From Flavobacterium enshiense (GTDB lineage: Bacteria > Bacteroidota > Bacteroidia > Flavobacteriales > Flavobacteriaceae), in the NCBI RefSeq assembly GCF_022836875.1, contig NZ_CP090376.1, forward strand, positions 3,100,001 through 3,164,000: a DNA stretch of 64,000 nt. The letters run 5' to 3'. The notes beneath the pieces are model-generated. The model did not search any database and was not told the origin of the DNA. It saw only the letters and a program-made list of their open reading frames with translations. Positions within the stretch are counted from its first letter, which is position 1; each line of letters begins with the position of its first letter. The translations under genes and the position numbers were made by a program. This document shows, in pieces, positions 2,588 to 34,836 of the stretch.

Positions 2588-2660
2588 GACTCGGTAGCTC
2601 AGCTGGTAGAGCACATCACTTTTAATGATGGGGTCCTGGGTTCGAATCCCAGCCGGGTCA
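2588..2660 (+). tRNA. tRNA-Lys (anticodon TTT), copy 1
   Basis: Full cloverleaf of 73 bases. The acceptor stem GACTCGG pairs with CCGGGTC (one G-T), the D-arm is GCTCAGCTGGTAGAGC, the anticodon loop holds CTTTTAA with anticodon TTT, and the T-arm is CTGGGTTCGAATCCCAG. CCA is not encoded. The second copy, 33 bases downstream, is identical. Confidence 0.97.
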
Positions 2661-2693
2661 CAAAAATGACCTAAATTATTTTCCTGAAAGCAA

Positions 2694-2766
2694 GACTCGG
2701 TAGCTCAGCTGGTAGAGCACATCACTTTTAATGATGGGGTCCTGGGTTCGAATCCCAGCCGGGTCA
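2694..2766 (+). tRNA. tRNA-Lys (anticodon TTT), copy 2
   Basis: Base-for-base identical to the first tRNA-Lys over all 73 positions, with a different spacer in front. This is a recent or conversion-maintained tandem duplication. It is presumably co-transcribed from the promoter at 2533 and is followed by a terminator hairpin at 2775. Confidence 0.97.
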
Positions 2767-2774
2767 CAAAAAGA

Positions 2775-2802
2775 AGTCGAACAGTAATGTTTGACTTTTT
2801 TT
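2775..2802 (+). terminator. Rho-independent terminator after the tRNA-Lys pair
   Basis: Eight-base stem AGTCGAAC / GTTTGACT (one G-T) with a six-base loop, followed by a T tract. It lies between the tRNA-Lys pair and tRNA-Leu, so tRNA-Leu may depend on read-through. Confidence 0.75.
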
Positions 2803-2808
2803 ATTTAC

Positions 2809-2890
2809 GGCCACGTGGAGAAATTGGTAGACTCGCCATCTTGAGGGGGTGGTGCTGCAAGGCGTATGGGTTCGAATCCCATCGTGGTCA
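2809..2890 (+). tRNA. tRNA-Leu (anticodon GAG)
   Basis: An 82-base class II tRNA. The acceptor GGCCACG pairs with CGTGGTC, the anticodon stem CCATC/GGTGG encloses TTGAGGG with anticodon GAG, there is a variable arm, and the T-arm is TATGGGTTCGAATCCCATC. CCA is not encoded. The last 16 bases plus the following C recur 117 bases downstream (2992-3008), and a long inverted repeat lies between the two copies. Confidence 0.95.
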
Positions 2891-10419: not shown

Positions 10420-10461
10420 AATTTCTGAACCTTTTTTCCCGAAAGTCCGATATTTGTTACG

Positions 10462-10692
10462 AAAAAGGCAGGTCTCCTGGCTTGCGTCCTGTTGTTTACC
10501 TTCCCATTTTGAATTTAGAATTTAGAATTCAGAATTTAGAGTTTCTTCTAATTTCCGACTTCTACTTCCACATTTCTCAACAGTGGTTTGTAGATAACAA
10601 CAGGCTTTACAGCTTACAGTTGCGGGAACAGCTTAGGATTTAAAACCTAATTCCCTTTTAATGCAGTTTGAAATAATCAAATCGCAACCTTA
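10462..10692 (-). promoter_or_regulatory. Cobalamin (B12) riboswitch
   Basis: On the minus strand the class signature appears in order: AAGGTTGCGAT, AAAAGGGAA, TCCTAAGCTGTTCCCGCAACTG, CCACTG, TGGGAAGG and the B12 box AAGCCAGGAGACCTGCC (near 10468-10485). The arm between CCACTG and TGGGAAGG is enlarged and contains a 7-bp tandem repeat. Downstream, the CCTTTTTC that follows the B12 box can pair with GAAAAAAGG at about 10430-10438, just ahead of the btuB start, which suggests control of translation. It governs btuB and btuG only; the cob genes lie upstream of it. Confidence 0.93.
10511..10545. repeat. 7-bp tandem repeat inside the riboswitch
   Basis: Five units of GAATTTA (third unit GAATTCA, fifth degenerate GAGTTTC) at 10511-10545, within the variable arm of the cobalamin riboswitch. 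Repeats of this type can change copy number by slippage. Confidence 0.85.
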
Positions 10693-10811
10693 ATCGGGCG
10701 CAAATATAAAGTTATAATTATCAAAAATGCAAGTGAATCTGTGATTTTAAATGATTTTTTAAACAATAAGCAAAAAACCACTAGTCTCTCATCTTATTTT
10801 ACAAACAATTC

Positions 10812-32660: not shown

Positions 32661-32797
32661 AAAAAAAGAGGTCCTTTTACAGACCTCCTTACAATGTTTG
32701 ATTTACTATTACCCTCTAACTATACAAGTATAAACGATCACGCAAATCTGTCCTCTTTTCACGGATGAACTTCTTTGAATAACAAATCAAATATCGT
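32661..32797 (-). ncRNA. Structured small RNA, copy 1 (137 nt, candidate)
   Basis: On the minus strand a TAAATTTG -7 element (32802-32809) precedes a segment whose 5' part (32778-32796) pairs with its 3' part (32692-32710) in a 19-position stem with one mismatch, extendable by two more pairs. A GAGGTC/GACCTC hairpin (32668-32687) with seven T follows as terminator. No open frame of useful size is inside. A second, longer copy lies 300 bases away; the ends are conserved and the middle is not. No known RNA family could be assigned by eye. Confidence 0.6.
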
Positions 32798-32966
32798 ATA
32801 TCAAATTTACAGCTTTTATCAATTTAAATAACTAAAAAACAAAACATTAACATATAAAAGTTATTAACTTTTTTAAATCACTGTCGGTATCCATCAGAAA
32901 GCAAATAATGAAAAGCATAAATTCATTTTTAAAAATTTAAAATCATCTAAACTTTACATTATTTTC

Positions 32967-33180
32967 AAAAAAAAGAGGCCCTTTTACAAGCCTCTCTTAC
33001 AGTATTTGATTTACTATTACCTTATTAACTATAGCCCCAACGACTTCTCACTATCACTAGTGTAAATACCATTCAGCTATTAAAGTCTCTATGACTCCCG
33101 AGGATGGTTTTTCACATCAACGAACCGAAAATGCCCTCTTTTCACGGATAAACAAATTCGAACAACAAATCAAAAACCGT
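32967..33180 (-). ncRNA. Structured small RNA, copy 2 (214 nt, candidate)
   Basis: Same plan as copy 1: -7 element TAAATTTG (33185-33192), 5' strand at 33161-33179 pairing with 33000-33018 over 19 positions with one mismatch, and a terminator GAGGC/GCCTC (32975-32994) with eight T. Compared with copy 1, one stem pair changes A-U to G-C, another A-U to G-U, and the fifth terminator pair changes U-A to C-G, all keeping pairing. The longer middle can form extra hairpins (ACCAT/ATGGT). A 95-codon plus-strand frame crosses it but looks accidental. Confidence 0.6.
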
Positions 33181-33471
33181 ATATCAAATTTACAACTTTA
33201 CACAAAACAAAACACTGTAACACAAAACATTAACACCAAAAGTTATCAACAACTGATAGCTGACTACTTGGTCAAAAAACAGAAAAAATGTATTTTATCG
33301 AATATAACAGTAAAACATCAAACTAATTTACTTTTTAAATCTATCGTATGTAAATTAACAAGCAAAATCATCATTTAAACCTATTTAAGAGTTTTACGAA
33401 ATCTATTTTTTTTATCAAGATGCGTTTTACAGAGTAGAATACAAGGAAGTTAAACTAAATAAATTAAGCCT

Positions 33472-34836
33472 ATGAAAAATATATTACTTTTAGTTTTATC
33501 CTTATTATCACCTATTGCAGTTATTGCCCAATGCTGGACTTCCATATCAGCCAAAAACGGACAATCCGCAGGGATAAAAAACGATGGCACATTATGGACA
33601 TGGGGATTTAATGGCCAAGGACAATTAGGAGACGGAACATCTGTAAACAAAAACATTCCCGTTTTGGTATCCGGACCAGCTGATTGGAAAATGATCTCTT
33701 CCGGCTATAATCATATGGTCGCATTAAAAAGCAATAACACATTATGGGCTTGGGGATGGAATCAATCCGGCCAGTTAGGTAATGGTACCAATACGTCAAG
33801 CTCTGTTCCAATACAAATAAGTTCAGAAACTAACTGGAAAACGGTTTCCGGAGGTGGAAGCCATAATTTAGCTTTAAAAAATGACGGAACATTATGGGCT
33901 TGGGGAGGCAATGTCTATGGTAATTTGGGAGATGGAACTACCGCTGATAAATTATATCCGACACAAATCGGCACAAATAATGATTGGTTATATATCTGCG
34001 CCGGCCATAACAATTCGTTTGCAATAAAAACAGACGGAACTCTTTGGGCTTGGGGTGATAATTCGCACGGCAAACTAGGCGATGGAACTGCCACTAACAG
34101 AGCAGTCCCCACTCAAATTGGCACCGACTCCAATTGGGCAAAAATAAGCGACGGATTCGGACATACTATAGCAATCAAACAAGACGGCACACTATGGGTT
34201 TGGGGCTGGAATGCCTACGGACAATTAGGGGATAATACCAATACCGACAAATTTTCCCCCATACAATTAGGCATAGATACGAACTGGTCAAACATTAACG
34301 CCGGAGGGTATCATTCCTTGGCTATAAAAACGGACGGAACCCTATGGGCTTGGGGATATAATAGTTTTGGACAATTGGGTAACGGTACCAATACCGGTGT
34401 CAAGTTCCCTATCCAGGTCGGAAGCGGAACCAATTGGCGTGACATAGCGCTCTCATTCCAACACAGTATCCTTATAAACACCAATGGCAATATGCGTTCT
34501 TGTGGGTATAACACAGACGGACGATTAGGCATTGGTACAAACCAGCATGTAAATATTCCAAAGGATGTCAATTGTCTTATTTTAAACAATGAAAATTTCG
34601 ACAAAACTGATCCGTTTTTTTTATACCCCAACCCGGTATCAGACAAATTATTCATTGTTAATACCGAAAACCGCATAATTGACAAGATGTCTTTACTTGA
34701 TGTAACGGGAAAAAAAATCAGGGAACTGGAGGTAAAAATTTCGGAAATTGACATGCAGGAATTAGAAAGCGGAATGTATTTCCTTCAGATTACGATCAAC
34801 GGTCTAAACCAAATGAAAAAAATCATAAAAAAATAA
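33472..34836 (+). CDS. Secreted RCC1-repeat protein with type IX secretion sorting domain
   Basis: 454 residues: signal peptide (1-19, ending VIAQ), about seven RCC1-like repeats of some 50 residues with the core GTLWAWGxNxxGQLGxGTxT, forming a seven-bladed propeller (about 25-365), then a T9SS type A C-terminal domain (about 382-454; LYPNPVSDKLFIV, LLDVTGKKI, LESGMYFLQI). It should be secreted across the outer membrane and anchored or released. The propeller probably binds a protein or glycan; no enzyme motif is visible. Confidence 0.92.
   Translation: MKNILLLVLSLLSPIAVIAQCWTSISAKNGQSAGIKNDGTLWTWGFNGQGQLGDGTSVNKNIPVLVSGPADWKMISSGYNHMVALKSNNTLWAWGWNQSGQLGNGTNTSSSVPIQISSETNWKTVSGGGSHNLALKNDGTLWAWGGNVYGNLGDGTTADKLYPTQIGTNNDWLYICAGHNNSFAIKTDGTLWAWGDNSHGKLGDGTATNRAVPTQIGTDSNWAKISDGFGHTIAIKQDGTLWVWGWNAYGQLGDNTNTDKFSPIQLGIDTNWSNINAGGYHSLAIKTDGTLWAWGYNSFGQLGNGTNTGVKFPIQVGSGTNWRDIALSFQHSILINTNGNMRSCGYNTDGRLGIGTNQHVNIPKDVNCLILNNENFDKTDPFFLYPNPVSDKLFIVNTENRIIDKMSLLDVTGKKIRELEVKISEIDMQELESGMYFLQITINGLNQMKKIIKK

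Follow-up and report, generated by a model that had tools for sequence, protein, structure and literature searches.

Two predicted small-RNA copies in Flavobacterium enshiense belong to a structured, multicopy RNA family of the genus

The window analysed here, a 64,000-nt stretch of the Flavobacterium enshiense contig NZ_CP090376.1 (positions 3,100,001 to 3,164,000), contains two related units on the minus strand, unit B being followed by unit A. The 3' end of copy A lies 89 nt before a same-strand gene encoding an AraC-type regulator, next to which a copper-type P-ATPase gene is found. A divergent gene (33472-34836, plus strand) encodes a secreted-looking protein with RCC1-like repeats, as judged by eye, and a 95-residue ORF (33091-33378, plus strand), which overlaps some of copy B and the copy B promoter in antisense, is probably spurious. 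The window also holds a Cobalamin riboswitch (10450-10707, minus strand; 91.1 bits) and three tRNA genes in a row (2588-2890, plus strand), the first two of which have equal scores. The components of the two units are as follows.

33180-32967, minus strand: copy B RNA, about 214-215 nt
33230..33234, minus strand: proximal half-site of copy B, GTTAA, 42 bp ahead of its -7 box
33192-33185, minus strand: copy B -7 box, TAAATTTG
33161..33180, minus strand: copy B closing stem P1, 5' strand (fold and A/B comparison)
33126..33160, minus strand: copy B first inner arm P2, holding ATCCGTGAAAAGAGG at 33149-33135
33019..33125, minus strand: copy B enlarged region replacing arm P3, kept in locus L154
32999..33018, minus strand: copy B closing stem P1, 3' strand (fold and A/B comparison)
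32967..32998, minus strand: copy B intrinsic terminator (sequence and fold)
32797-32661, minus strand: copy A RNA, about 137 nt
32847..32851, minus strand: proximal half-site of copy A, GTTAA, 42 bp ahead of its -7 box
32809-32802, minus strand: copy A -7 box, TAAATTTG
32778..32797, minus strand: copy A closing stem P1, 5' strand (fold and A/B comparison)
32739..32777, minus strand: copy A first inner arm P2, holding ATCCGTGAAAAGAGG at 32766-32752
32711..32738, minus strand: copy A second inner arm P3 (fold)
32691..32710, minus strand: copy A closing stem P1, 3' strand (fold and A/B comparison)
32661..32690, minus strand: copy A intrinsic terminator (sequence and fold)

The first-pass annotation of this locus, which left out the promoter of copy B (extending to about 33234), had described a -7 element, a long-range stem and a T-tract terminator hairpin in each copy. 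All three are present in both A and B, the stem spanning 20 positions with 19 pairs and one mismatch. The compensatory changes that it reported between the copies are likewise seen: stem position 4 switches from A-U to G-C, stem position 18 from A-U to G-U, and one terminator pair from U-A to C-G. Its statement that the middle of the two RNAs is unrelated holds for most of the region, which differs, but not for the first arm, where an identical 15-mer, ATCCGTGAAAAGAGG, occurs in both copies; the middle is therefore not wholly unrelated. Both RNAs fold better than dinucleotide-shuffled sequences (copy A, z -3.50, 0 of 200 shuffles as good; copy B, z -3.59, 1 of 200).

The same B-then-A pair occurs in a related genome (locus L154), in which copy A shows 4 differences in 137 nt and copy B has the same 215-nt length with 22 differences; identity over the kilobase surrounding the pair is 87% between the two genomes. 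Changes at paired positions keep the pair in 2 of 3 cases in copy A (one breaks it) and in 9 of 13 cases in copy B (four break it). A third copy is found elsewhere in the genome (G000:362306-362450), and it has a counterpart, L164, in the genome of L154.

BLAST searches of 60 genomes with copy A returned matches at E<=1 in 58, most of which were noise. Among the 15 regions fetched, eight (L031-L033, L037-L041) contain family copies and seven (L034-L036, L042-L045) showed none; BLAST combined with inspection revealed copies in seven further genomes. Six of 13 copies, none of them from the window, were used to build a covariance model, R1. Window copies A and B, L031 and L032 were left out as a test set, and L033 and two L039 copies were left out on account of a one-base terminator shift. 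The covariance-model check suggested at the first pass came out in favour of a family: although derived from other genomes only, R1 recovers both window copies in a 70-kb search (copy A, 39.3 bits, E 1.6e-6; copy B, 30.5 bits, E 1.3e-4), with L031 and L032 scoring 33.2 and 51.8 bits. A second model, R2, was built from 84 copies with window A and B included, so that its scores for these two are not independent. Copy B is a weak family member, with an E of 0.00124 when R2 is run on the whole genome, and is missed in the genus-wide searches (R1 at E<=0.01; R2 at E<=1e-4). Five matches lying on the opposite strand of terminators (E 0.0012-0.0078) were dropped, reducing a set of 60 to 55. The largest alignment, A6, comprises the best 150 of 173 matches.

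Family members are predicted to adopt a fold in which a long closing stem, P1, surrounds a three-way junction bearing two arms, P2 and P3, and is followed by the terminator. In the P1 consensus the 5' strand features TGTGGTTTTGATT and the 3' strand AAATCAAAA, and the main helix of P1 forms a standard pair in 96.7% of cells. The linker between the arms is near AATA, and the 3' end reads GGAGGnCT...AGnCCTCC before the T tract. Letters are more conserved in P1 and the junction than in the arms, which vary in both sequence and length. In an alignment of 84 copies that was fitted to the covariance model and leans towards it, as do alignments A4, A5 and A6, both partners have changed and still pair at 36 of 43 base pairs. 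Pair-keeping both-side cells number 351; six controls with slid partners give 38-75, and shuffles average 92.5, none of 500 being as high. Paired cells amount to 92.4%, against 38-53% when partners are slid by 1-3 columns, and here too all 500 shuffles stay below the observed value. Both-side changes are already visible at 5 of the 43 pairs in a plain MAFFT alignment of six copies. The stems are maintained by covariation in homologues, one of the two points named at the first pass on which the reading could fail, and A and B are, on this comparative evidence, copies of a real structured RNA family.

GNRA-like tetraloops cap P2 in 67 and P3 in 49 of the 150 copies in A6, compared with shuffled means of 23.6 and 19.6. 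Arrays contain mixed arm subtypes, and 64 of the 150 copies fall outside the eight subtype labels used. Locus L155 (1501-1671, minus strand) is a 171-nt outlier, the fold of which has an unusually long arm inside P1. Closed ORFs of at least 20 residues are present in 49 of 150 copies and ORFs of at least 30 residues in 10; their scarcity, together with lengths that vary by single bases, argues against a coding role.

R1 at E<=0.01 detects the family in 56 of 199 Flavobacterium genomes, and R2 at E<=1e-4 yields 200 matches in 97 of 398. Of these 97 genomes, 51 carry one copy and 46 carry two to eight, often in tandem; because few candidates were scored per genome (16 in the R1 survey, 8 in the R2 survey), such copy numbers and shares are lower bounds. 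Arrays run head-to-tail, with copies mostly about 190-350 bp apart, and the largest comprise seven copies in 2.2 kb (G007) and eight in 2.4 kb (G394). Four R2 matches in F. limi (28-31 bits, E 0.24-0.75) were left uncounted. In a family-wide sample of 299 genomes over 236 genera, the one positive is the genome of the window itself, and as far as sampled the family appears confined to the genus Flavobacterium. A scan of viral contigs with one exact pattern gave 0 matches, a weak test given that a near-identical pattern finds only 28 of 150 known copies, and an equally null plasmid search with one copy is likewise a weak test.

Promoters were compared in 154 copies, that is, the 150 of A6 and four added by hand, window B among the four. 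Window A was checked separately, since A6 holds the best 150 of 173 matches and does not include it. Relative to a -7 box defined by the loose pattern TAnnTT[TAG], a GTTA is found 40-44 bp upstream in 140 of 154 copies and a second one 51-55 bp upstream in 116; both half-sites are present in 110 copies and neither in 8. The arrangement GTTAA-N6-GTTA occurs upstream of 108 of 154 copies; 50 mononucleotide shuffles average 0.48 and never exceed 2. In both window copies the proximal half-site is located at exactly 42 bp, and the distal one is absent in register. Half-sites one helical turn apart, or an 11-bp repeat, constitute a layout read by response regulators of the OmpR/PhoB type. The shared -7 box and the half-sites in register suggest that one transcription factor acts on these promoters.

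The pattern formed by the two sites and the box is present in 19 of 19 genomes, against 0-3 matches per strand for a reversed control. Seven genomes with no detected sRNA copy have 1-10 matches each, against 0-2 for the control, and the promoter repeat is thus not specific to the sRNAs. Of 30 pattern loci inspected, sRNA copies included, nine precede DUF4870-type genes (one confirmed), three a histidine kinase gene (one confirmed), three TetR-type regulators (by eye) and one a PadR-type regulator. A fourth such kinase is found in G009. As judged by eye, the repeat lies before DUF4870-type genes at L202, L217, L218, L220 and L223, and before TetR-type genes at L199, L207 and L222; it is also present in genomes that lack the sRNA. 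At L195, L203 (the same as L224), L211 and L225, two to three GTTAA repeats with an 11-bp period are located about 65-90 bp before a histidine kinase gene. This kinase could belong to an autoregulated two-component system sharing its site type with the sRNA promoters. Control of the family through that one kinase was rejected: a counterpart at E<=1e-60 is found in only 2 of 15 genomes, the other 13 giving no match at this threshold.

Neighbouring genes were recorded at 41 loci. An RdgB-cluster gene (Ham1 family) is present on the upstream side or between copies at 23 loci, and an NYN/OST-HTH-cluster gene lies downstream at 21. RmuC is upstream at six loci, including the window, and an AraC-type gene is downstream at four (the window, L088, L094 and L109). 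No single neighbour is common to all 41, and the copper genes adjoining the window copies look incidental. The next downstream ORF (at least 90 residues) is on the opposite strand at 27 loci and on the same strand at 14. This split, along with the changing neighbours, indicates that the RNA generally forms a unit by itself.

We consider it probable (roughly 0.6) that the copies are independent, signal-controlled, trans-acting sRNAs of a multicopy family, organised like LhrC or FopS. Each copy would constitute a gene of its own, with its promoter, a P1-closed three-way-junction fold and its terminator, from which an RNA would be made under the control of a transcription factor that recognises GTTAA half-sites spaced by one helical turn. 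In trans, the RNAs may regulate mRNAs: arm loops or a 5' end that has opened could pair with these, a protein could be bound, or both. With copies in tandem the dose would rise, and the variety of arm subtypes would extend the range of targets. Base pairing is the default mode for such sRNAs. Scanning 16 genomes, outside the sRNA genes, for sequences complementary to the commonest P2 loop (14 nt, at most one mismatch) identified no target. The search returned 8 scattered one-mismatch matches, below the 15 of the reversed control, and antisense action of this particular loop was therefore rejected.

Alternatively, the product may be a compact folded RNA, which, as a sponge or scaffold, binds a protein instead of pairing with mRNAs, the arrays supplying dose. 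The paired 5' end, the lack of a target for the commonest P2 loop and the enrichment of GNRA-like loops in both arms make this a serious rival, and the conservation of P1 and junction over the arms also speaks for it. GNRA-like tetraloops in P2 and P3 would suit a structural role better than that of a free pairing seed. Nevertheless, arm subtypes differ inside arrays and the loci lack a common neighbour gene, and we regard protein binding alone as possible rather than probable. Equally tentative is the proposal of a new class of compact, tertiary-folded RNA. Here a three-way-junction scaffold particular to the genus, its diversifying arms capped by GNRA loops, would be produced from arrays under a single response regulator and would act via a protein or exchangeable arms, not as a common antisense sRNA.

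That the copies are instead cis-acting leaders or attenuators of the downstream gene (in the window, the AraC-type regulator followed by the P-ATPase) is very unlikely. Copy A does end shortly before a same-strand gene, and at L092, L093, L095 and L096 a downstream, same-strand pseudouridine synthase gene starts 56-58 nt away. However, an opposite-strand gene follows at 27 of the 41 loci, so the RNA is not a leader in general, and arrays of up to eight terminated copies fit such a role poorly.

The long closing stem had, at the first pass, brought to mind a 6S-like RNA, which would sequester RNA polymerase; the wide presence in the genus also fits such a role. The 6S-Flavo RNA (RF01685) also occurs in flavobacteria and, like this family, features a long closing helix. 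Its model, however, has no match at A or B, and a separate 6S-Flavo gene is present in the same genome (3171650-3171755; 91.9 bits, over the cut-off). Moreover, the hallmark of 6S RNA is a central bubble, whereas the family fold is a closed three-way junction, and we consider a 6S-like role extremely improbable.

Least credible of all is a non-functional mobile repeat of the MITE type with terminal inverted repeats mimicking a stem: inverted terminal stretches do surround a variable middle and some copies occupy other sites (L078, L079), but covariation extending to the inner helices refutes this explanation in the main, promoters lie in register, syntenic sites recur, and the viral-contig and plasmid searches, both weak tests, gave no match. 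The first-pass view of a functional structured RNA, as opposed to a degraded repeat, is strongly supported by covariation over the 84 copies, the promoter register and the survey of the genus.

Knowledge of small-RNA regulation in Flavobacterium is sparse, one transcriptome paper standing out in the literature searched. A family that is frequent in the genus, shows strong covariation, forms up to eight side-by-side copies and has a promoter element in common with other operons may offer direct entry to a regulon and to the growth and diversification of sRNA arrays.

At gathering score, Rfam 15 has no match to the copies in the window region. A loose threshold gives four matches in this region and seven in eight homologous loci, to unrelated families and all far below curated cut-offs (for instance, ctRNA_p42d at 22.1 bits against 50). 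Neither Flavo-1, which the first-pass annotation had raised, nor Bacteroidales-1 is among them. The literature searches, supplements and most subscription journals aside, yielded no description of the family, which, passing no Rfam cut-off, is previously uncatalogued by these searches.

According to PMC9723704, Rfp18 of F. psychrophilum is a structured sRNA reported as broadly conserved across Flavobacterium, and its third stem-loop pairs with metalloprotease mRNAs. In the draft genome of F. psychrophilum DSM 3660, R2 finds 0 matches at E<=1, with 150 of 3147 candidates scored. RdgB and RmuC queries have 74% and 80% identity there, and both sites are empty: rdgB is separated by about 130 nt from an IMP dehydrogenase-like gene (identified by eye), and rmuC by about 65 nt from a pseudouridine synthase gene. 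Without filtering, no score at these sites exceeds 16.4 bits, and the match with that score falls inside a coding region. Identity with Rfp18, at first the leading candidate among published RNAs, is rejected at this sensitivity, as the family is undetected in the home species of Rfp18. It is this non-detection in F. psychrophilum, not sequence, that sets Rfp18 apart, and a very diverged member could escape detection.

The FopS RNAs of Bacteroides, as presented in PMC11697453, are multicopy sRNAs (9 of 14 intergenic) with their own promoters, a Rho-independent terminator, a single-stranded conserved 5' seed and one terminator hairpin. The flavobacterial family resembles them in being a multicopy sRNA family of the same phylum with its own promoters and terminator. 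In contrast, its conserved 5' end is paired in P1, leaving no open seed of the FopS type, it has two arms, and its copies are often in tandem.

OmrA and OmrB, sibling sRNAs named in PMC11697453, offer another comparison. The OmrA/OmrB pair is under OmpR control and has a simpler fold. Were the flavobacterial family likewise controlled by an OmpR-type regulator, the two would be alike in regulation.

LhrC genes of Listeria cluster in tandem. LhrC1-5 are homologous sRNA genes, the activation of which depends on the response regulator LisR. The flavobacterial family differs from the LhrC RNAs in its three-way-junction fold, and no sequence relation between the two is expected. The likeness is one of organisation: on sequence evidence, the flavobacterial family comprises several homologous sRNA genes, each with a promoter and a terminator.
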